From positions 1 through 43,836 of the forward strand of contig JALRLY010000243.1 in assembly GCA_023647555.1 (NCBI GenBank): a stretch of DNA of 43,836 bases, in the 5' to 3' direction. The notes under the pieces were generated by a model. The model did no database searches. It saw only the letters and a list, made by a program, of their open reading frames with translations, and was not told the DNA's origin. The stretch comes from Pancytospora philotis (taxonomy: Eukaryota > Microsporidia). Each line of letters starts with the position of its first letter. Position 1 is the stretch's first letter. Shown here in pieces: positions 6,510 through 42,473 of the stretch. A program made the position numbers and the translations under genes.

Positions 6510-8639
6510 ATGCGGTCCGACAGCTCTGCTGCAGAAATTGAGGGGGCATGCGAAATGTGCGGGAAGGCCGCGCCGCGGATAAAGTGCGGCGAGTGCGGCG
6601 AGCATCTGTGCAACGACACCAGCAACGGGATCTCGCACGCGGTGTACCACCTCGTGAAGCGGCAGCACCGGAGCATCCTGCTCGACGGGTGCGCGGCCAA
6701 GTGCGCGGAGTGCGGCGAGGGCAACGTGTTCCGGCTCGTGCACGCGGTGGACCGCGCGCGCGGCGGCGACGCCTTCTACTGCTCGGCCTGCCGCGACTCT
6801 CCAACGATCATCAGCAACAAAATTTTTGTAATTTTGGACTCTGCTGTCTCTGCTGCGAAGCTCGACCGGGGCGCTGAGGCGGGCGAGCGCGGGCTGCCCA
6901 AGATGCGGCTGCGCTTCGACGCGCAGTCGTACGTGGACACGTTCATACCGCTGGTGACGGCCGAGAGCATGAAGGAGAAGGAGATCAAGGAGTCGATGCG
7001 GCAGGAGAACGTGACGCTGCGCTTTGCCGACCGCTTCTGCTTCTTTTACTTCCGGCGGCTCAACAACGATCTGAAGATCAACATTGGCGACGAGATACGT
7101 TTCAGCCACAAGTCCGGCGCGTCCTTCAGCGGGTTCATCAGCGACGACCAGTTTTCCGAGGAGCTGCGCGTTGAGATCGATGCGCGCTCTGTGCGTGGCG
7201 ATGGCGGCGCCGGGATCGGCGGCCTGCCGCACACCGGATACGTGGTGGAGTACGTGTGGCGCGCCGTCTGCTACGAGCGGATGTGCTGGGCGCTGAAGAA
7301 GCTCGCGCGCGACAAGAAGAAGAGCGAGATTTTCAGCTACATTCTGCGCGGCCGCAAGGAGAAGGCCGGGGAGATCGACATTCTCTCGCCGCCTGGCTTT
7401 TACGCGCTGAACGAGTCGCAGGAGGTTGCTGTCAAGGCTGCGCTGACCCGCACGCTCACGCTCATCCAGGGCCCGCCCGGGACCGGCAAGACGATGGTTT
7501 CTTCTGTGATTGTGTACAACGTTGTGCGGCTGCTGAAGAAGAAGGTGCTTGTTGTGGCGCCGTCGAACACCGCCGTGGACCAGCTGGCGCTCAAGATCAA
7601 CAGCGCTGGTCTGAAGGTGCTGCGGATCATGTCGCGGCGGCGCGAGACGAGTACGAACGAGACGGACTTTCTGTCTCTGCACACGCTGCTCAAGGAGTTC
7701 GATGATACCGATGCTGCGAAGCACGAGCTGATCAGATCGGCCGAGGTTGTGTGCTGCACGTGTGTCACCGCCGGTCAGAAGCTCTTCAACCGCTACAACT
7801 TCCCGTTCGTGCTGATCGATGAGGCTGTGCAGTCCACCGAGCCGCTCTCGCTCATTCCGTGCGTTTACGGCGCTACGAATCTTGTGCTCGTTGGCGACCA
7901 CAAACAGCTCGGGCCCACGATCCTTAACAAGGAGGTGGTGCGCGCCGGCTACAAGCAGAGCCTCTTTGAGCGGCTGCTGCGCATCGGCGTATCGCCGTAC
8001 ATGCTCTCCGTGCAGTACCGCATGCATCCTGACCTTTGCCAGTTCCCCTCTGAGTACTTCTACGGTGGGCTGCTCAAAACGGGCATGTCTCCGAACCGCT
8101 GCCTCAATTTCCCGAGCAATTTCTTCTACGTGTCCAACGGCAAGGAGGAGATCAGCCAGAGCGGCACTTCCTTCATCAACAGGGCCGAGGCCGTGCTGGT
8201 GGAGAACATCATCAGGTACCTCTTTAAGAACGGTGTGCTGGAGCAGCAGATCGGTGTCATCACCCCGTACGAGGGCCAGCGCTCCTACATCCTTTCCAAG
8301 ATATTCGCGAACGAGCCGGGTAACCTCGAGATCTCCAACGTGGACGGCTTCCAGGGCCGCGAGAAGGACTTCATCATTGTCAGTCTCGTGCGCAGCAACA
8401 CCTACCAGGGCATCGGGTTCGTGGCCGACAAGCGCAGGATGAACGTTGCGCTGACGCGCGCCAAGCACGGGCTTGCGATCGTGGGCAACCCGTTCACACT
8501 CTACAAGAACGAGATGTGGGCGAATCTGCTCGACTGGTACGATGCGCGCGGCTCGATCTTCGAGGGACCGGTCGGTGCGCTCAAGAAGATGAATCTCAAG
8601 TCGTTCGATATGAAGTCGCTGGTGGATGCGGTGCAGTGA
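6510..8639 (+). CDS. UPF1: UPF1 RNA helicase (nonsense-mediated decay)
   Basis: Protein of 709 aa. The N-terminus carries the Cys/His-rich zinc region typical of UPF1 (first pair C14/C17, then CGECGEHLC and a string of His residues). The superfamily 1 helicase core follows: Walker A GPPGTGKT at 321-328, Walker B DEAVQ from D437, VQYRMHP, and late motifs VDGFQGREKD and ALTRAKHG. UPF1 is an ATP-dependent 5'-3' RNA helicase that triggers decay of mRNAs with premature stops. It is shorter than yeast Upf1 (971 aa), mainly at the ends. The start at 6510 is supported by AAGATTTTTAGCCC at 6491-6504. Third positions are strongly G/C. Confidence 0.93.
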   Translation: MRSDSSAAEIEGACEMCGKAAPRIKCGECGEHLCNDTSNGISHAVYHLVKRQHRSILLDGCAAKCAECGEGNVFRLVHAVDRARGGDAFYCSACRDSPTIISNKIFVILDSAVSAAKLDRGAEAGERGLPKMRLRFDAQSYVDTFIPLVTAESMKEKEIKESMRQENVTLRFADRFCFFYFRRLNNDLKINIGDEIRFSHKSGASFSGFISDDQFSEELRVEIDARSVRGDGGAGIGGLPHTGYVVEYVWRAVCYERMCWALKKLARDKKKSEIFSYILRGRKEKAGEIDILSPPGFYALNESQEVAVKAALTRTLTLIQGPPGTGKTMVSSVIVYNVVRLLKKKVLVVAPSNTAVDQLALKINSAGLKVLRIMSRRRETSTNETDFLSLHTLLKEFDDTDAAKHELIRSAEVVCCTCVTAGQKLFNRYNFPFVLIDEAVQSTEPLSLIPCVYGATNLVLVGDHKQLGPTILNKEVVRAGYKQSLFERLLRIGVSPYMLSVQYRMHPDLCQFPSEYFYGGLLKTGMSPNRCLNFPSNFFYVSNGKEEISQSGTSFINRAEAVLVENIIRYLFKNGVLEQQIGVITPYEGQRSYILSKIFANEPGNLEISNVDGFQGREKDFIIVSLVRSNTYQGIGFVADKRRMNVALTRAKHGLAIVGNPFTLYKNEMWANLLDWYDARGSIFEGPVGALKKMNLKSFDMKSLVDAVQ

Positions 8640-14712: not shown

Positions 14713-15585
14713 TCATCGCTGGCAGCAGAATACGCGCCCGAGCCACTTTGCAAACGCGCGGCTGCTCGGCTTCGTCGGCGACACAACGACGGCCCGCACC
14801 TCCGGCTCGGCGGTCTTCTCGAGGCAGCGCTCAAGCAGCTCGTAGTCGGGGGCCTCGGTGAAGCCGAGGCCCTGCGCGTGTTTGAAGTAGGCAGTCCAGT
14901 GCGCAGAGCCGTTGAGCCCGCTGCTGAGCTGCTCTGGGGTCGTGTCCCGCTTGACCAGGGCCACGTCCTTCTCGTTCTCGCCGTCAGCGCGGTACCACGG
15001 CAGCGACTGCCTGAGCAGGAATACCAGCACGTACCCGAGCGACTCCAGGTCGTCGCGCCGGCTCTGGCACCAGCCGCCGTGTGCGTTCACCGATGCGTAG
15101 CGCATCGTGCCCACAAACATGACGTCCTTCTTCTCCTCTATGTGCGCGCCGCGGCAGCTGTACGGCGCAGCAGTGCCGAAGTCGACCAGGTATATCTTCT
15201 GGTCGAAGCCCACCATGATGTTCTCGGGCTTCAGGTCGCGGTAGACGAGCTCCTTCGCGTGGATGTACCGCAGCGTGCGGAGCAGCGTCACGCCGACCGC
15301 GGAGATCGAGGCGAACGTGAAGAACGCGGGGTTGTGCAGCGCGATCTGCGCGAGCGACACGCGGAACAGCGGGATCACGAGATACGAGAAATCGTCGAGC
15401 AGGCCGTAGTCGACGAGGCGCGGGATGTGCGGGTGGCTGAGCATCAGGAGCACGCATATCTCGTTCCTGAGCGACTCCTTGTTCTTTTCCACCTTCAGCG
15501 CGTAGACCGCCCTCCCGTTTATGATTTTGTAGACGACGCCGTAGCTGCCCTCGCCGATTTTGCTGTCGAGCACGAACCGATCCAT
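14713..15585 (-). CDS. Casein kinase 1 family protein kinase
   Basis: Protein of 290 aa, essentially a kinase domain. The glycine loop is IGEGSYGVVY (10-19), the ATP lysine K31, the catalytic loop YRDLKPENI (115-123, with Y in place of H) and DFG at 135-137. The substrate region FVGTMRYASVNAH (157-169) is the CK1 signature that replaces the usual APE motif. The protein ends in VFCCQR; a Cys pair at the C-terminus recalls the palmitoylated tail of the yeast plasma-membrane kinases Yck1/Yck2, although there the Cys pair is terminal. CK1 kinases act in trafficking, morphogenesis and nutrient signalling. Whether it is Yck-, Hrr25- or another type cannot be settled here. Confidence 0.87.
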   Translation of the reverse strand: MDRFVLDSKIGEGSYGVVYKIINGRAVYALKVEKNKESLRNEICVLLMLSHPHIPRLVDYGLLDDFSYLVIPLFRVSLAQIALHNPAFFTFASISAVGVTLLRTLRYIHAKELVYRDLKPENIMVGFDQKIYLVDFGTAAPYSCRGAHIEEKKDVMFVGTMRYASVNAHGGWCQSRRDDLESLGYVLVFLLRQSLPWYRADGENEKDVALVKRDTTPEQLSSGLNGSAHWTAYFKHAQGLGFTEAPDYELLERCLEKTAEPEVRAVVVSPTKPSSRAFAKWLGRVFCCQR

Positions 15586-17403: not shown

Positions 17404-18564
17404 ATGCCTGCGGATCCAACTACCGAAGCAAACGGGTTTTCGATACTCGTGGCCTCTGTTTCCCCATTTGTTTACGGAGCATGCATCTCGATTTCCACGC
17501 TACTCTACGAGAGCATCCAGAGGCTCGGCCCGGCACAGGCCGCCGAGGTCTACAAACGGCTGAATCTGTTCTTCTTCGGCGGCGCTTTTATCGCGAACAT
17601 CGCGGCCGCGCAGGCCCGGCTAGAATGCACCAAGCTCATCTCAGTGGCCAATTTCCTCTTTCTGTGCGGCTTCGCGCTGTACTGCAGAGAGTGTCCAAGG
17701 GCGATCTGCCTCGGCAGGCTCCTCTGCGGCTGCGGCGCCGGGATCGCCGCCAACATCGTCCCGTCCTACACCCGGCTCATAGCGGCGCCGGCCTACCAGG
17801 GCTTTGTGGCCTCGTGCTACGGCGTGTGCATCGTTGCTGGCGTCATCGCTGGCTTTGCATGCTCCTACCTGCAGCTCGGGCTGCGCAACAGCGTGTACTG
17901 CGCACTTGGTCTGCTCGCTGCGCAGCTAGGCCTTCTTTTCGCCTGCAGGCGCTATACCCTGCCCAAAAAGGCCGCGAGCGACTCGGGGAGCTTCCTGTCA
18001 TTCCTACTCAACCCGCGGGCACGCAGATCGCTCGTTATTATCGCACTGCTGCACACTGCGCAGCACCTCTGTGGAATAAACCACATCCTCCTGAATGCCG
18101 GGACGGTCTTCCCCGGCGCCGAGCCGACGCTGCTCCTGATCAAGCTGTGCGCAGTCGCGCTCTGCGCCTCGTTTTTCTCGTCGGTGCTGTCGCAGCGCGT
18201 CGGCCGGGCGCTGCTGGTCACTGCCGGGTGCGCGGGCATGGGCGCGTCGTGCGCCGCCTTCTACTTTACCTTCCACCCGAAGATCTTTGCGGTGGCGTTC
18301 ATACTCGGGTACAACACCGCCATCAGCGGGATTCCGTTCGTGCTCATCGGCGAGATTTTTCCGCTCGAAGACATGGCGCGTGGCGCGCTGTTCGCCACCT
18401 CCTGCAACTGGGCTGGCGCGTTCGCCAGCGTCTACGCACTCAGCAACAGCGCCCAGAAGAGGAACCCCTCATTTCTCTTCTATCTGGGCTACCACGCCGT
18501 ACTGATTGCTACGATGCTGCTTCTGTACAAAGAGACGCGGGGCAAGCGCCCGGGATATCAGTAA
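17404..18564 (+). CDS. MFS transporter of the sugar-porter type, divergent
   Basis: Protein of 386 aa with about ten to twelve hydrophobic segments. Family hallmarks are GRLLCGCGAGIAANIVPSY (like the GR..G...G......Y motif before TM5), the IPFVLIGEIFPLEDMARG block of sugar porters in the second half, and the terminal KETRGK in place of PETRGK. The central PESPRYL motif is missing and the loop between halves is very short, so the protein is smaller than the usual 450-500 aa. It probably moves a small solute across the plasma membrane; microsporidia import host sugars, but the substrate here cannot be told. The start follows AATATTCACCCAC. Confidence 0.78.
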   Translation: MPADPTTEANGFSILVASVSPFVYGACISISTLLYESIQRLGPAQAAEVYKRLNLFFFGGAFIANIAAAQARLECTKLISVANFLFLCGFALYCRECPRAICLGRLLCGCGAGIAANIVPSYTRLIAAPAYQGFVASCYGVCIVAGVIAGFACSYLQLGLRNSVYCALGLLAAQLGLLFACRRYTLPKKAASDSGSFLSFLLNPRARRSLVIIALLHTAQHLCGINHILLNAGTVFPGAEPTLLLIKLCAVALCASFFSSVLSQRVGRALLVTAGCAGMGASCAAFYFTFHPKIFAVAFILGYNTAISGIPFVLIGEIFPLEDMARGALFATSCNWAGAFASVYALSNSAQKRNPSFLFYLGYHAVLIATMLLLYKETRGKRPGYQ

Positions 18565-23795: not shown

Positions 23796-24962
23796 TCAGT
23801 GCAGCCCCATAACAATGCTGACGAGGGTCGTCGAGAACACGACGATGCCGAACAGAAAGGCGCAGTACGCTGCGATGGAGAGCGCCAGCGTGCGCTCCAC
23901 GTCCATGTGGAAGTAGTATACGGCCGGGAGTATCAGCGCCATGGCCGTGGATGCGGTAGCGCCTACGATGGTGTATACGATCCCTAAATCGATGCCGGCC
24001 GCGGCGATCATGTAGGAGGTGAAGATGATCGCGAAGGTGAGGATGATGTGCAGCGCGTTGAACTTCCGCTTCTCTGGCGGGACGCCGAGCATGTTCATGA
24101 GGTACACGCGCGCCGGCGCCACCTGCAGCGGGTACGACACGCCCATCACGACCACGTACAGGCCGCGCACAAACGTGGCGAGGTAGTCCGGGGGGTAGTT
24201 CTTGAGCACGTTGTCCGCCACGCCGTCGCCGTACAGCAGGTAGTTCGGGAGCCCGAAGGACATGTAGAGCACGAACGCCGTGGAGGAGACGCAGTAGATC
24301 AGCCGCTTCATCTTCGGCACCGAGTTGTCGAGCATCTCGGCGTTGACGGCGAAGATGTTCTGGTGGCACGTGAAGCTGAAGATGAACTTGCCGAGGCTGG
24401 TGAGCCAGAGCACGGTAACCGGCGCGACGATGTGCACCGCCACGTCGTCTATCGTCTTTGCGGCGTAGCGGACGCTCGAGGCGATGATCACGATCACGAT
24501 GCAGAGCAGCCCGACGAACGACGTGTACTTGAGCTGGTCCATCTTTATGAGGAAGGTGAAGGGCCCGATGAGGCACAGGAAGATGAAGAGGCAGACCTGC
24601 GGCTGCGAGAGCACGGATGCGCGCCCGGTGACCGTCTCTATGAACGGCGGCAGCAGCTGGCGCGTGATGATTATGTAGCTCGTGGACACGCCGAAGCACT
24701 TGATGAAGACCGCGAGGTCCACGAAGATCCGCGCCTGCGGGACGGACATCTGCGCCAGCACGCTCAGATCGGCGCTGCGCCCGGCCTCCTGTGCGCATAT
24801 CGCGAGGAGCAGAAGGCCCGTGGCCGACAGGAAGCCGCAGAGGACCGTGAGCGCGACCGTCGGTGCGATCCCGTATGTCTTGAAGAGGTAGGGGAAGTTC
24901 AGCACGCCGCTGCCGATGCTCGTTTTCAGCAGGTTGATGTATGCGGCGCCGAATGTCTTCAT
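23796..24962 (-). CDS. Amino acid permease of the AAAP family
   Basis: Protein of 388 aa with about eleven transmembrane segments. The N-terminal block AAYINLLKTSIGSGVLNFPYLFKTYGI is the typical first helix of the amino acid/auxin permease family (AVT-type vacuolar transporters), where the unwound GSG binds substrate. PNYLLYGD and the SYPLQVAPAR block in the second half also fit. It probably exchanges amino acids across the plasma or an internal membrane. Substrate and direction cannot be told. A longer overlapping frame on the same strand is Arg/His-rich and spurious. Confidence 0.88.
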   Translation of the reverse strand: MKTFGAAYINLLKTSIGSGVLNFPYLFKTYGIAPTVALTVLCGFLSATGLLLLAICAQEAGRSADLSVLAQMSVPQARIFVDLAVFIKCFGVSTSYIIITRQLLPPFIETVTGRASVLSQPQVCLFIFLCLIGPFTFLIKMDQLKYTSFVGLLCIVIVIIASSVRYAAKTIDDVAVHIVAPVTVLWLTSLGKFIFSFTCHQNIFAVNAEMLDNSVPKMKRLIYCVSSTAFVLYMSFGLPNYLLYGDGVADNVLKNYPPDYLATFVRGLYVVVMGVSYPLQVAPARVYLMNMLGVPPEKRKFNALHIILTFAIIFTSYMIAAAGIDLGIVYTIVGATASTAMALILPAVYYFHMDVERTLALSIAAYCAFLFGIVVFSTTLVSIVMGLH

Positions 24963-25527: not shown

Positions 25528-25726
25528 CGGTGGGCGCAGATTTGGCCAATTTCTGCGGGGGAAAAGGCGCATCGTTATACAGTGCCTATAAAGAACTGCA
25601 GGAATGACACGCAGACTGCGAATGGCATCCCACTAGCCTATAATAAATTAATTCGTGCCCGTAACGTCTACCATACTCTATAGCAGCACACGGCGAGTAG
25701 TTCTTTTTGCACGGGCGCCAGCCCTT

Positions 25727-27778
25727 ATGGACGAGTATGATGCGCTGATCAAAGAGCTGCGCGTGGACTGGGACGGCGTGCTGTCCGAGGACTTCAACCC
25801 GCTCGCCGTGAGCCTGCACATCTCCATGAACTCCAAGCGCGCGTCCGACTTCAGGGAGATGCTGCACCGCCTCGAGTTTACGATGGAGAAGATCATCGCG
25901 GCGAACTACAAGGGCTTCAGCGACTCGGTGCTGAGCTACAACGAGGTGAACCGGCACAACACGGGCGCGCTGGAGGCGCTGCGCGAGATGGAGGCGCAGG
26001 CGATGCAGATCAAGTTGGACCGCGTGGACCTGGGCGGGATCACCGCCGAGAAGGAGATGAGCGGCGTGTGCGAGGCGAAGTACGGAATCTGCAAGGGCGT
26101 GGGGCGCGTCAAGCAGATCCTGGACGAGCTGAGCGGCGATCTGCAGACGCGCTCGCACGCGATCGTGGCCGCGCTGGATAGCATCGACAACAAGGACTAC
26201 GTTAAGATCAAGGCGGTCGATGAGTTCCGGAAGGTTGTGTACCGCAAGTACACGGACATCGTGGAGGAGGTGAACGAGATGCTGTGCGGCTTCGTCTTCA
26301 AGAACCAGCAGGAGAACCTGCAGTACTTCGAGTGCGTGAAGGTGCTCGGGTCGCTCTACGAGCTCGAGCAGTTCTTCATGAAGGCCTTCCACGCGCGGCT
26401 GTTCAGCGAGATCGAGGAGACGATCATGTCCTTCTACCGGGCGTCGGGCAGCGGGCTCGAGCGGCTGTGCCGGGGCGTGGCCGCGAAGTTCGAGTCCGTG
26501 GAGGCGAACGTGCTGAAGGTGATCGAGCTCGCCGTGCGCAACTTCGAGATCGACAGGGACACCGGCACGTTCAGCCTGAAGCACGGGCCGCGGCTGCCCG
26601 ATTTCTTCGGGAAGCTCGACACCACGTTCAGCTTCTGCGTGGACGGCAACGTTGCGCTCGGCATCATCAAGGAGGAGCTCAAGGCGTTCATCTACAAGTA
26701 CCAGGACAGCCTGCACGGGCTCGCGTTCGACTTCAGCCTCAACTACATCATCGACGACCTGGACTACGCGAGTCTCTACCCGCCGAGCCATCCGATACTG
26801 CACCAGCTCTCGCAGTCCAAGCGCCAGTACAGCAACAAGAGCACGGGCTACACGGTGGTGACGGCCACCGGGCCGGAGGTGGTGGAGTTCCTTGCCAAGT
26901 ACGTGCACAGCCCGGCGCTCTCGCTCTTCCTGCGCGAGGAGATCGGCAACCTCTACATCGAGCACGGCTTCGAGCGGGACAAGCGCACGATCAACGGCAT
27001 TTTCAGCGGCGAGCCGCTTAAGCGCGCCGGCGAGTCCGACCGCCTGGCCCTCGTGGCCGCCGCCCGGACGATCTTCAAGCCGCAGTACCAGGAGCACCAG
27101 GAAAGCCTGAAGCACCACTTCGTAGAGCGGCTGCTCGCCTGTCTCAACCGGGTGTACCGCGAGACGTTCACCAGCGAGCTCGTAGTGGAGCCCGATGCGC
27201 AGTCCACCGCGGACAACCTCCGCTCAGTCCCCGCCGGGGCCTTCAGAGAATCGCTCATCACGAAAGCCATCAAGCGCAAGGACCTTCTGCTGAGCAAGCA
27301 GCGCTACGGGCTGGTCGTGGCGGTGATCAACAGCCTCGGCGACCTGAGCGCGCTTCTGCTGGCCGACAAGATCGCGGACCTGCGGCGCACGTTCGTGACC
27401 GCGTTCCGGCAACAGCTCAACATCGAGTTCTTCTACTTCTTCGACCATTTCTACAGACAGGGCCACTTCAACCACTACATGCGGAAGATCGTCGACATGC
27501 TGGCCATGGTGTACGCGGAGACGCGCAGCGGGACGTACTTCGAGACCATCTACGAGAACCTCGAGTACTACTGCATCCACAATACGCGGGCGCTGAACGT
27601 GCGGACGCGGGACGAGCTGGCGCAGTTTGTCGGGCAGCTCCGGATCCTGGACGAGGTCATGGGCGAGGTGGAGTTCTACAGCGATCTCAAGAAGGTCTAC
27701 GAGTTCTTCGGGGCGGTGCTCGCCGGGGAGAGCGACACGAAGTACGGGAAGGCGCTGGAGAAGAAGATTGAAGAATAA
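25727..27778 (+). CDS. SEC8: Exocyst complex subunit Sec8
   Basis: Protein of 683 aa. The N-terminal part has the Sec8 pattern: a short Leu/His stretch, SMNSKRASDFREMLHRLE, and then NYKGFSDSVLSYNEV, which corresponds to the family's H..GFN.SI..Y block, followed by a heptad-rich region. The rest is helical, as in exocyst rods. Sec8 is a core subunit of the octameric complex that tethers secretory vesicles to the plasma membrane. Yeast Sec8 is over 1000 aa. The start at 25727 follows CAGCCCTT; the longer upstream frame is unlikely. The stop codon overlaps an AATAAA (GAAGAATAAATAG). Confidence 0.78.
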   Translation: MDEYDALIKELRVDWDGVLSEDFNPLAVSLHISMNSKRASDFREMLHRLEFTMEKIIAANYKGFSDSVLSYNEVNRHNTGALEALREMEAQAMQIKLDRVDLGGITAEKEMSGVCEAKYGICKGVGRVKQILDELSGDLQTRSHAIVAALDSIDNKDYVKIKAVDEFRKVVYRKYTDIVEEVNEMLCGFVFKNQQENLQYFECVKVLGSLYELEQFFMKAFHARLFSEIEETIMSFYRASGSGLERLCRGVAAKFESVEANVLKVIELAVRNFEIDRDTGTFSLKHGPRLPDFFGKLDTTFSFCVDGNVALGIIKEELKAFIYKYQDSLHGLAFDFSLNYIIDDLDYASLYPPSHPILHQLSQSKRQYSNKSTGYTVVTATGPEVVEFLAKYVHSPALSLFLREEIGNLYIEHGFERDKRTINGIFSGEPLKRAGESDRLALVAAARTIFKPQYQEHQESLKHHFVERLLACLNRVYRETFTSELVVEPDAQSTADNLRSVPAGAFRESLITKAIKRKDLLLSKQRYGLVVAVINSLGDLSALLLADKIADLRRTFVTAFRQQLNIEFFYFFDHFYRQGHFNHYMRKIVDMLAMVYAETRSGTYFETIYENLEYYCIHNTRALNVRTRDELAQFVGQLRILDEVMGEVEFYSDLKKVYEFFGAVLAGESDTKYGKALEKKIEE

Positions 27779-39240: not shown

Positions 39241-39286
39241 GTTTTGCTCTAACAGCGAAAATTTGGATTTTGCCACTCACCCTTCC

Positions 39287-41596
39287 ATGGCGACGAGATT
39301 CTGCAAGCGACTCTATTGCGCGCTGCTTGCTACTGCGCTGTGCGAATACGCTATACAGACCACCGACAACATGCTGTACCTGCTTTCTGAGCGGCGCGCG
39401 GGCTTTCCGATCCCGTTCGGGCGCGTCCAGCACCCCGACCACGATATGCCGCTGGCGGGCGAGCAGCGGGCGGACCAAAAATATCGCGGCAGCGACAATG
39501 CTGCGGAGGACCGCTCGCGCATCGTCGACGGCGGAGCGGCGCCAGCGAGCGCCCCCGGCAGGTATGCTTCCGCCGAAGCAAACGCGCTGTGCTCGCTCGG
39601 CCGGCCCGCGCGCGGCCTTGCCCAGCTCTCGGCGCTACAGAGCAAGGGCCGGCTCGACTCGATACGGCTGAGCGACGACGGCTGCGTGATCTACCGCGAT
39701 TACAAGATACCGATAACCATGCTCTATGGCACGCCGTTCTTGCAGGACAACATATCGATAATGGCGAACAGCCTGCACATCCCGTACGTCATCGACGGCA
39801 TATTCCTGGCCGTCGCTTCGATCGAGATCGTGGCGTACGATCTGGAGAGTTACAACCAGCGCACGATCCGCATGGACTACCTTGTGCACTGGCGCGAGGA
39901 GAGCTACAGCTACGAGGTCGACGGCAACAGGCTGGTGATCGATGGCACCGCCTACACCTTCCCGGCGCCCGTGCTGGCGGTATTCCGGCTCGAGCACCGC
40001 GGCGCGCTTCTGTATCTTGTGCGGCTGTTCAACAACAAGCTGCCTTCGGCCCTGCGGCACTTCGACTTTGCCCGCCACTCCGCGGCGAAGCGCGCAGACG
40101 GGGCGCTCACGCCTGCGGCCGAAAAGGCTGACGAGCTTGCGGCGCTCAGCAACACCGGCATCTGCCCTGTGCTCGACAACGATATTTTCGACCATTTGTA
40201 CATTAAGAATCTGATAGACTCTTCCCACGTGAGCAGCGTGCCCGCGCTTGTGCGCAAGTACGGCAGCGGCAAGGAGGGGCACGTCGATTTCGACGGGCAC
40301 CACTCCATGAGCATTGCGAGCCTGGTGCAGCTCTATGCGCGCCACGGCTTCTTCGTCTATGTGCTCGGCCACATCAACATCACCGTCGTGCTGCTGCTCC
40401 TCGTGTGCGGCCTCGTGGCCTACCACCGGCGGAACATCAAGCACTGCAGGCGGGTGGCGCCCGGGATCTACCGCGCGGAGTTCCTGGGAGCGCCCTGCCT
40501 CGTGTACCAGGTGGCCAACTTCCGGCACTGCTACAGCCGGCCGCAAGAGAAGAACGGCCGGCTCGTGGACATCTACAGCTACAACCGCCTGCTGTTCGGC
40601 CTTGCGCTTTTCCGGAAGGTGGTCGTGACGGAGGAGACCACGCAGTACGTCTGCCCCGACCGCGCGCGGCTCAAGGAGGACCTGCTTGCCGTGGCCCGGG
40701 TGCTGGAGTATATGCACGACAGGAACTGCACGCTCGACCGGCTGTGCCCCGAGAACATCCGCGTGTCCAGCAACGGCACGGTGAAGGTGCAGGCCATCAC
40801 CGACAACCTGGGGTGGCGGCCGGCGTCGCGCATTCTGCGGCGCGCGGCCAAGACCGGCCTGCAGTCCACGGTCGGGGATGTGTTCGCCTTCGGCTGCGTG
40901 CTCCACTACTACCTCACGGGCCACCACCCCTTCGACTCTGTGAGCCCCAAGAAGTACCGGGCGCGCGGGAGCACGGACTCGTCGGAGATGCCGCATATCA
41001 GCAGCGATGACGCAAGCAGCCCGAGCGAGCCTGCGCCCAGCGCGGCAGAGGCGCCGGTGCCCTGCGTGCACAGGCAGGTGCTCAGCGACGAGGCGCTGAA
41101 AACTGTCCTGGAAAACACCCGGACCAACTCATACTACATCCGCGTATCGGACACCGAGACGCACGATCTGATATACCACTGCGTCTTCATGGGTAACATC
41201 CGCATCTCCCAGCACCCGTTCTTCTGGCGGCTGGACACGAAGCTCGAGCTGATCTGCGACGTCTCGGACTACATCGACGTCAATCCGTACTACCGCGACC
41301 GCGTCGAGCGCCTGAAGGAGCTCGTATTCCGCGGGCGCTGGACGGACACGGTCGACCGGCGCATCCTGGACCACGTCGAGAAGAAGCGGCGCTACAACGG
41401 CATGAGCCTGGTCGATTTGATGCGCGTGATCAGGAACTCGCACAGGCACCACCACGAGTACGGCAACAAGGAGCTCTACTCGCTGCTCCCCGGCGGCATC
41501 GCCGAGTACTACACCACCAGGTTCCCCACGCTTGTGCTTTGCCTTTACAAGTGCAAGCACATCCGGAGCAACGAGGTATTCAAGAGGTATTTCTGA
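39287..41596 (+). CDS. IRE1: IRE1-like ER stress sensor with degenerate kinase and intact-looking RNase domain
   Basis: Protein of 769 aa. Order: signal peptide (1-22), linker, lumenal beta-rich domain (about 120-270, with LHIPYVIDG and RMDYLVHW as in IRE1 lumenal domains), transmembrane segment (about 353-378), kinase-like domain (about 385-640) and C-terminal KEN RNase domain (about 643-769, from HPFFW). The kinase looks inactive: the HRDLKPQN position reads LDRLCPEN (483-490), so catalytic Asp and Lys are Arg and Cys. DFG is replaced by DNLG (506-509) and no VAIK lysine is evident. In contrast, RNase residues Y703, R716, N717 and H721 keep the spacing of human Y892, R905, N906 and H910. 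A Ser/Ala-rich insertion lies between them (about 565-590). IRE1 cuts mRNAs in the unfolded protein response. The start at 39287 follows AAAATTT...CACCCTTCC and gives the signal peptide. Confidence 0.87.
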   Translation: MATRFCKRLYCALLATALCEYAIQTTDNMLYLLSERRAGFPIPFGRVQHPDHDMPLAGEQRADQKYRGSDNAAEDRSRIVDGGAAPASAPGRYASAEANALCSLGRPARGLAQLSALQSKGRLDSIRLSDDGCVIYRDYKIPITMLYGTPFLQDNISIMANSLHIPYVIDGIFLAVASIEIVAYDLESYNQRTIRMDYLVHWREESYSYEVDGNRLVIDGTAYTFPAPVLAVFRLEHRGALLYLVRLFNNKLPSALRHFDFARHSAAKRADGALTPAAEKADELAALSNTGICPVLDNDIFDHLYIKNLIDSSHVSSVPALVRKYGSGKEGHVDFDGHHSMSIASLVQLYARHGFFVYVLGHINITVVLLLLVCGLVAYHRRNIKHCRRVAPGIYRAEFLGAPCLVYQVANFRHCYSRPQEKNGRLVDIYSYNRLLFGLALFRKVVVTEETTQYVCPDRARLKEDLLAVARVLEYMHDRNCTLDRLCPENIRVSSNGTVKVQAITDNLGWRPASRILRRAAKTGLQSTVGDVFAFGCVLHYYLTGHHPFDSVSPKKYRARGSTDSSEMPHISSDDASSPSEPAPSAAEAPVPCVHRQVLSDEALKTVLENTRTNSYYIRVSDTETHDLIYHCVFMGNIRISQHPFFWRLDTKLELICDVSDYIDVNPYYRDRVERLKELVFRGRWTDTVDRRILDHVEKKRRYNGMSLVDLMRVIRNSHRHHHEYGNKELYSLLPGGIAEYYTTRFPTLVLCLYKCKHIRSNEVFKRYF

Positions 41597-41754
41597 GCAG
41601 GGCTGGGGTGTGTTTGCGCGCAGGTGGACCATCCTGCTGGTTGATTGCGTAATGGCTTATATGCTTGTGGATATACAGATGTAACTCTTAGTGCTGCATA
41701 CATGAATAATAAATTTAATCAGATAGTCTTTGGGTTTATTATTGCTCGTGGATT

Positions 41755-42003
41755 GTGTTAAACGAGAACGCCGATATGCGCGTGCGCACCGGGATCATGA
41801 TCGATGCAAATCGACCTGACCTCCTCGTGCACGACAAGAAGCGCTGCGAAATCATCCTCATCGAGGTCGGGATCGCGAGCCAGGACCGCCTGGTCACCGT
41901 AGAGACCGAAAAGACGAGGAAGTACGGCGTGCTTGCTAACAAGCTCGGCGCAGAGCATCCGCCGTTAGCAAGCTCAAGCGATTCATCTCCAATTGGATCT
42001 TGA
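41755..42003 (+). pseudogene. Fragment of a non-LTR retrotransposon protein (C-terminal part)
   Basis: The frame has no good ATG and stops a few codons further upstream. It reads NRPDLLVHDKKR, then IEVGIASQDRL and ETEKTRKYGVLANKLG. This N[RK]PD...DK....IE[VI]...D.....E.EK..KY..L...L pattern is found at the C-terminal end of non-LTR retrotransposon proteins. Similarity ends at about NKLG and the frame closes 16 residues later. It is therefore a relic, the rest of the reverse transcriptase being absent from the flanks. Its GC content is higher than that of the surrounding DNA. Confidence 0.62.
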
Positions 42004-42473
42004 ATACATTCCCCTTTTTCCGTGACAGCCCGCAGCCGGGAGCTAGCCGGAGGCGCCGCGCATTGGCGTACAAGGAGTAAATAGGACAATCAGAGGCCCG
42101 GCAACCCCACTGACTAATTGGACTAATCAGAGAATGTTCGCGAGTAGAACAATCTACTTGCATGACGGCTCACCCGGGCGCTCGCTTGAACACTTATAAG
42201 TATATCGCTTAAAATCTGTCTCAAACAGAGGGGATAACGATAATATCATTCTTATAAAAAGGGGAATGTCAAAGGTCGTATTTCGACGCTCGGATTCGTC
42301 GTATACAGTCTGCAGCAACATGCATCGCCTATTTTCGGATACTGGGCGGCTCTGCCAATGGCAGCTATTGCTAGTGCATCAACTGGTTGCTCTGCCCCTC
42401 TTGATGCGATTGCCAGTGTATTATTTGGTTTCTTGCCCCTTTTAATATCATGATACTGGGGAAATTTTACCCC
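42004..42473. other. Intergenic region downstream of the retroelement relic
   Basis: The region contains two CAATCAGAG/TAATCAGAG motifs (about 42090-42098 and 42117-42125), and a TTATAAAAAGGGG stretch near 42252. The right edge is the AAATTTTACCCC start signal (42462-42473). No intact gene is seen; further retroelement debris is possible. Confidence 0.4.
42462..42473 (+). promoter_or_regulatory. AAATTTTACCCC start signal
   Basis: This box directly abuts the ATG at 42474. A near copy (AAAATTTTGCCCC, 43559-43571) stands in the same place before the truncated paralogue, so the box is duplicated together with the gene start. Confidence 0.7.

Follow-up and report, generated by a model that had tools for sequence, protein, structure and literature searches.

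Near the end of a 43,836-nucleotide stretch of Pancytospora philotis DNA (contig JALRLY010000243.1; hereafter the window) lies an open reading frame (ORF) whose product resembles IRE1, with a ribonuclease (RNase) domain of the KEN family that keeps its catalytic residues and stands directly behind a kinase domain that has lost its own. The frame runs without internal stops from an ATG at 39287 to a stop codon at 41594-41596 and encodes 769 amino acids (Table 1). Its GC content at codon positions 1, 2 and 3 is 0.61, 0.42 and 0.88, in or near the range of six other genes in the window. Microsporidia carry a CCC-type motif close to their start codons; a CCC precedes this ATG, and one is also found no more than 30 bases upstream of the start in four of six other genes (enolase, Ras, DEAD and UPF1-like, a count whose chance level is uncomputed), while the CK1-like kinase and amino-acid transporter genes have none within 30 bases.

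The KEN identity of the protein is far beyond chance. The Pfam profile Ribonuc_2-5A (PF06479), a check proposed in an earlier note on this DNA, matches residues 652-769 over all of its 127 positions (1-127) with an E-value of 3e-23 and a score of 82.8 bits, against a cut-off of 23.3. IRE1 from yeast and human heads the PDB matches (16 distinct chain sequences, E 5e-19 to 9e-13), RNase L comes next after the IRE1 chains (E 2e-6), and the 3.68-Mb, 83-contig genome assembly contains a single KEN match.

Among 5.8 billion proteins searched, only two relatives were found, both from microsporidia: one from Pancytospora epiphaga (P0002, an N-terminally partial record) and one from Glugoides intestinalis (P0003). 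Overall identity to the query is 36% and 30%, respectively, and the P. epiphaga protein reaches 41% over residues 450-769. A search with the first 500 residues returned the query alone, and a search aimed at residues 450-769 returned both relatives. An alignment-based protein search gave no additional relative and also missed P. epiphaga, which is present in the database; since the protein searches are lossy, the known distribution is a lower bound. Pattern matches to KEN relatives in viral and in bacterial or archaeal contigs numbered 13 and 53, none of which was confirmed. The reading frame stays open in all three proteins, with the relatives matching the query at just 30-36% of residues. 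The best conserved parts by pairwise identity are the KEN domain and the kinase C-lobe (35-44%), and the least conserved are the linker and the transmembrane (TM) segment (6-25%).

Table 1. Features of the IRE1-like ORF in window coordinates (residue numbers in brackets; 3/3, all three microsporidian proteins)
Feature	Position	Strand	Basis
Whole ORF, IRE1-like KEN RNase with pseudokinase	39287..41596	+	769 aa; Pfam; relatives in P. epiphaga and G. intestinalis
CCC upstream of ATG	39280..39282	+	Read in sequence
Signal-peptide-like N-terminus (1-24)	39287..39358	+	Hydropathy only; weak peak; G. intestinalis alike
Presumed lumenal sensor (25-358), conserved core 121-247	39359..40360	+	Comparison with two relatives
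Probable TM segment (about 359-378)	40361..40420	+	Kyte-Doolittle 2.48 over 19 aa; peak at 359-377
Pseudokinase domain (about 395-640)	40469..41206	+	Pkinase under Pfam cut-off, E 1.8e-4
CLVY (404-407) in place of beta3 VA-K; ATP-lysine position is Tyr407	40496..40507	+	VAxK equivalence by eye
LDRLCPEN (483-490) in place of HRDLKPxN; Asp to Arg485, Lys to Cys487	40733..40756	+	Alignment, 3/3
DNLGW (506-510), DFG remnant N507-L508-G509, no activation loop after it	40802..40816	+	Residue spacing, alignments
Acidic/Ser-rich linker (561-597), poorly conserved	40967..41077	+	Pairwise identity 14-32%
KEN RNase domain (641-769)	41207..41593	+	PF06479 1-127/127; pairwise identity 37-47%
Asp658, equivalent to yeast K992, RNase dimer interface	41258..41260	+	Asp in 3/3; role from PMC8104961
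Tyr703, equivalent to yeast Y1043 and human Y892	41393..41395	+	3/3
R716 N717 S718 H719 R720 H721, equivalent to yeast R1056 N1057 K1058 Y1059 H1060 H1061	41432..41449	+	RNSHRH in 3/3

The pseudokinase domain and its missing loop

Loss of the VAIK, HRD and DFG residues is taken as the mark of inactive kinases (PMC4280135), and the motifs of an active kinase are absent from the query and from both relatives. At beta3 the three proteins read CLVY, CLMY and CLIY (query, P. epiphaga and G. intestinalis, in this order throughout), with Tyr in place of the Lys by an equivalence drawn by eye. The HRD region reads LDRLCPEN, HGKICPEN and HGRLCPEN, in which the catalytic Asp has become Arg, Lys and Arg, the Lys is Cys in all three and only the Asn is kept in all three; neither the beta3 Lys nor the HRD Asp survives in any of them. 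The DFG Asp is most likely replaced by Asn in all three proteins: N507 is invariant and falls on this position in a three-sequence profile, in a MAFFT alignment and by counting from the preceding Lys, with a shift of one residue possible, and the neighbouring D506 is Glu in G. intestinalis. Losses this drastic could come from sequencing or assembly error in an ordinary IRE1, an explanation to which we give almost no weight, since the relatives refute it: the same losses recur in independent records from two named genera, and a control kinase elsewhere in the window, the CK1-like one (14713-15585, reverse strand), retains both YRDLKPEN and DFG.

The activation loop is also missing. From the HRD Asn to the Trp of GW there are 20 residues in each of the three proteins versus 44 in human IRE1 (counted to the GW of the APE region), and the gap after DFG amounts to about 23 residues in all three (23 alignment columns; other counts give 22 or 24). 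For each protein phmmer aligns GW with its counterpart in yeast or human IRE1, which places the gap directly after DFG, and the three-sequence profile sets NLG opposite DFG and the gap later, with the same missing length. In human IRE1 the corresponding stretch forms the activation loop, which bears the phosphorylation sites. Since both the catalytic residues and the loop are gone, self-phosphorylation is ruled out.

The earlier note had described a dead kinase beside a kept RNase set, and the ORF, LDRLCPEN and the four RNase residues lie where it had placed them. It had seen no evident ATP lysine, in accordance with the Tyr at this position, and had named orthologues with normal motifs as the sign of sequence error; both relatives share the losses, so the protein passed this test. 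Its reading of DFG as DNLG was right that the motif is altered and understated the change, as the DFG Asp corresponds to N507 and the loop behind it is missing. Because the phosphorylated loop is absent, switching without phosphorylation is more strongly implied than that note saw.

The phosphorylated loop of yeast Ire1 binds to R796 and to K833 of beta10, both of them described as conserved throughout Ire1 evolution (PMC5533888). The R796 position, the Arg before the catalytic Asp, is Asp, Gly and Gly in the three proteins, and the beta10 stretch appears to lie within the gap. Loss of the loop together with R796 agrees more with a remodelled switch than with random decay. The protein is a conserved and probably functional variant.

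What remains can still be recognised as a kinase. The C-lobe stands directly before KEN, none of the alignments examined paired the N-lobe with IRE1, and the three-protein profile hits kinases, among them CDKL3 (5e-7) and PLK4 (4e-6), as well as PknB chains, the latter from profile position 74 on. The Pfam kinase match is under the cut-off in the query and P. epiphaga and barely over it in G. intestinalis (32.2 versus 31.7 bits), so kinase searches could miss an IRE1-like RNase of this kind. The published Encephalitozoon cuniculi kinome is without Ire1 (PMC2078597), no word starting with 'ire' occurs in the main text of a kinome study that covers four microsporidia (PMC4280135), and a Vittaforma corneae annotation paper contains none of the four RNase and unfolded-protein terms sought (PMC9960886). 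Microsporidian RNases described as 'difficult to place' were taken out of the alignment used in a 2021 paper (PMC8104961). The earlier note had supposed such a protein to be new in microsporidia: no pseudokinase IRE1 from this group is announced in the titles and abstract openings among the matches listed, a survey mostly of open articles rather than subscription papers and preprints, and the name IRE1 is already attached to both relatives at NCBI, where the word 'kinase' in these names is unsupported by the motifs. The picture based on E. cuniculi is thereby revised, as some microsporidia, at least, retain an IRE1-like RNase.

The RNase site, the dimer interface and possible outputs

The catalytic Tyr, Arg, Asn and His of the KEN domain (Y703, R716, N717 and H721) are kept in all three proteins at exactly the spacing of yeast Y1043, R1056, N1057 and H1061. 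In this respect the earlier note's claim of a conserved RNase set stands; it does not extend to yeast K1058 (human K907), where all three proteins have Ser (Ser718), turning the motif RNKxHH into RNSHRH. One could conclude from this serine that the RNase is dead too, and that a full pseudo-enzyme persists in the role of a scaffold at the membrane or of a sensor that binds RNA. We consider this improbable, since the four catalytic residues are invariant at exact spacing, the KEN domain is among the best conserved parts, and human RNase L is an active RNase (PMC4718504) despite Leu at the same position, which means that Lys is not required there in all KEN enzymes.

The dimer interface offers a guide to the kind of RNA cleavage. 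In a published comparison, 230 IRE1s were sorted by the residues at yeast positions 988, 992 and 1059: a Saccharomyces cerevisiae-like class (33 of 230) has E/D, K/R and mostly Y, and a Schizosaccharomyces pombe-like class (175 of 230), predicted to be enabled for regulated IRE1-dependent decay (RIDD), has varied residues, D/E and K/R (PMC8104961). The three microsporidian proteins share Glu, Asp and His, which matches neither class, and have Arg at yeast position 1060. We infer that Glu/Asp/His may represent a third interface type, closer to the RIDD type.

A splicing output would call for a ligase and a substrate, and the genome offers a candidate for each. RtcB is encoded on contig C83 (E 2.7e-127); it is needed for tRNA splicing in any case, and one tRNA endonuclease domain match was found. 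The profiles RNA_lig_T4_1 and XRN_N had no match in the genome, and the control genomes were equally silent, so that no absence is claimed. One bZIP gene exceeds the cut-off (contig C36, E 3.5e-8), with three more bZIP_2 matches below it. Its match lies at C36:40946-41113 on the reverse strand, in a frame of 201 amino acids from ATG that includes the zipper and has the basic region NRIAAKKSREKK; its best PDB match (E 0.09) is insufficient to assign a class. Across the 1,336-base bZIP region there are 15 CNGCNGN heptamers, none of them in a hairpin with a stem of at least 3 pairs, where 0.42 (simple shuffles) or 0.55 (dinucleotide shuffles) would be expected by chance. At the same stem length CNGNNGN hairpins number 0 versus 1.40 expected. 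NNGNNGN, the loosest pattern, occurs 6 times versus 4.85 expected with stems of at least 3 pairs, and twice versus 2.01 with stems of at least 4.

A phosphorylation-free IRE1 could therefore be imagined to splice a HAC1/XBP1-like mRNA via non-consensus sites with RtcB as its ligase, given that RtcB and a bZIP gene are both in the genome and that RTCB has been described in microsporidia (PMC13247085). We hold this to be a shade less probable even than a dead RNase: RtcB is explicable by tRNA splicing alongside the endonuclease, the 201-residue bZIP frame already includes its zipper and has a PDB match too weak to class it, and neither stricter pattern forms a hairpin in the bZIP region, although fewer than one and 1.4 were expected. 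The Asp at the K992 position and the lack of CNGCNGN hairpins lean weakly towards mRNA decay over splicing.

The N-terminal part and the genomic surroundings

The earlier note had credited the protein with the full IRE1 architecture, which is shown for KEN and the kinase C-lobe only; outside the two relatives, no homologue of the presumed lumenal part could be detected. Its core (121-247, 127 residues) is 44% identical to P. epiphaga and 21% to G. intestinalis, and by hydropathy a TM peak occurs at the corresponding place in all three proteins. A second hydrophobic peak at 165-183, also present in P. epiphaga and not listed for G. intestinalis, casts slight doubt on the topology. Residues 1-353 match no Pfam family at E-values up to 10, and thus no ankyrin repeats were found, for which reason we rejected an RNase L orthologue. 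A QTTD motif in the N-terminal part was considered as a likeness to the start of IRE1/PERK lumenal domains and set aside, as its best PDB match (E 0.63) was to unrelated proteins.

Among factors of the endoplasmic reticulum (ER), three ERO1-family matches exceed the cut-off, two of them close together (C17:109926-110480 and C17:111662-112213) and one at C58:7848-8387, a set that looks expanded for a reduced parasite genome. ER-type HSP70 (BiP) was not found in the assembly by family and protein searches, which an assembly gap could explain; the HSP70-type genes found appear by eye to be cytosolic-type, DnaK/mitochondrial-type and a distant HSP110-like one.

Elsewhere in the window lie a UPF1-like helicase (6510-8639, forward strand; UPF1_Zn_bind 5.9e-7), which suggests a nonsense-mediated decay factor, a sugar transporter gene (17404-18564, forward strand; E 5.8e-24), an amino-acid transporter gene (23796-24962, reverse strand; E 2.3e-56) and a match to the exocyst Sec8 N-terminus (25655-27778, forward strand; 3e-7). 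A retroelement remnant suspected downstream of the ORF was dropped; the single frame translated (41750-42090, forward strand) has several stops, and this was no real test.

A proposed switch by clustering and comparison with known systems

We propose, with a probability of about 0.58, that the protein is a single-pass, IRE1-like pseudokinase RNase in which lumenal clustering serves as the switch, phosphorylation plays no part and nucleotide probably none, with a rather RIDD-like output. When the N-terminal parts cluster in the ER lumen, two cytosolic halves would meet back to back. The pseudokinase would then be a fixed structural scaffold that keeps a pair of KEN domains joined, and the composite RNase site so formed would cut RNA. 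Nucleotide would probably be unnecessary, and broad mRNA cleavage would be somewhat likelier than splicing of a HAC1/XBP1-type mRNA. With no loop, the active form of KEN would be set by dimerisation alone, or the protein would work differently. In accordance with such a switch, the yeast Ire1 mutants D828A and D797A K799A show reduced but retained HAC1 processing (PMC5533888), and in RNase L a KEN RNase is combined with a kinase that is inactive (PMC4718504).

A ligand might still take the place of phosphorylation. If the pseudokinase pocket bound ATP, ADP or some other small molecule by an unusual mode, this ligand could license the RNase, much as in RNase L, where ATP binding activates an enzyme devoid of kinase activity (PMC4718504). 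Invariant in all three proteins, and suited to such a pocket, are the HRD Asn (N490) and a TExTxQ stretch at 448-453 that looks hinge-like by eye. In RNase L, however, the nucleotide is coordinated by conserved kinase residues (PMC4718504), and here the beta3 Lys is Tyr, Asn probably replaces the DFG Asp, and neither a Gly-rich loop nor an alphaC Glu was recognised by eye. We regard nucleotide use as unlikely, though less so than a dead RNase.

Several observations weigh against clustering as the switch and decay as the output. The three proteins are without the activation loop that yeast Ire1 has (PMC5533888), and RNase L, the closest precedent for an inactive kinase, retains canonical ATP binding (PMC4718504). 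With Ser at the K1058/K907 position, RNase activity is not assured. The His at the Y1059 position is unlike the Lys or Arg of RIDD-enabled IRE1s and could signal low activity, since changes at 992 or 1059 that broke their pairing lowered activity 100-fold or more (PMC8104961). As to the output, the presence of RtcB keeps splicing feasible, two NNGNNGN hairpins with stems of at least 5 pairs occur in the bZIP region versus 0.82 expected, and the lack of CNGCNGN hairpins there is weak evidence because chance expects fewer than one. The lumenal part has no significant PDB match (best profile E 0.059, to unrelated proteins). AlphaFold2 models of the full protein, built with the three sequences, and of the KEN part were unusable (mean pLDDT 35.1 and 44.6), and a Foldseek search with the KEN model gave 14 weak matches, none at E <= 0.001 and none to IRE1, from which no inference was drawn.

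A bolder form of the clustering proposal is that a microsporidian lineage rebuilt IRE1 as a phosphorylation-free and nucleotide-free stress RNase, in which the loop and both halves of the phosphate switch were excised, the third KEN interface (Glu/Asp/His) sets a distinct RNA specificity and clustering is the sole signal. We put this forward tentatively, at somewhat under even odds. The role of the IRE1 kinase beyond scaffolding has so far been debated largely via point mutants and ligands; in three genomes of microsporidia, which represent two genera or more, evolution appears to have stripped all of the kinase chemistry together with the phosphorylated loop and to have spared the RNase set, which makes the protein a testable natural minimal IRE1.

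We class the protein as a KEN-family, IRE1-like pseudokinase RNase. It is not classed as an ordinary IRE1 because the features of an active kinase were sought and its motifs are absent. With yeast Ire1 and human IRE1alpha it shares the order of TM segment, kinase and KEN, the spacing of the Tyr, Arg, Asn and His, the HRD Asn and GW; unlike them, it lacks the beta3 Lys, the HRD Asp, probably the DFG Asp and the activation loop, has Ser for K1058/K907 and Glu/Asp/His at the interface, and carries a lumenal domain that profiles cannot recognise. The RIDD-only Ire1 of S. pombe, whose kinase is reportedly normal, resembles it in the Asp at the yeast K992 position. The two differ at the yeast Y1059 position, which is Lys or Arg in the S. 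pombe class (PMC8104961) and His in the query. RNase L likewise joins KEN to an inactive kinase and has no Lys at the K1058 position (Leu in its place), and it is set apart by its ankyrin repeats, its 2-5A trigger and its canonical ATP binding (PMC4718504). The P. epiphaga and G. intestinalis proteins share the query's kinase losses and RNase set, the G. intestinalis protein having larger inserts in its kinase part.
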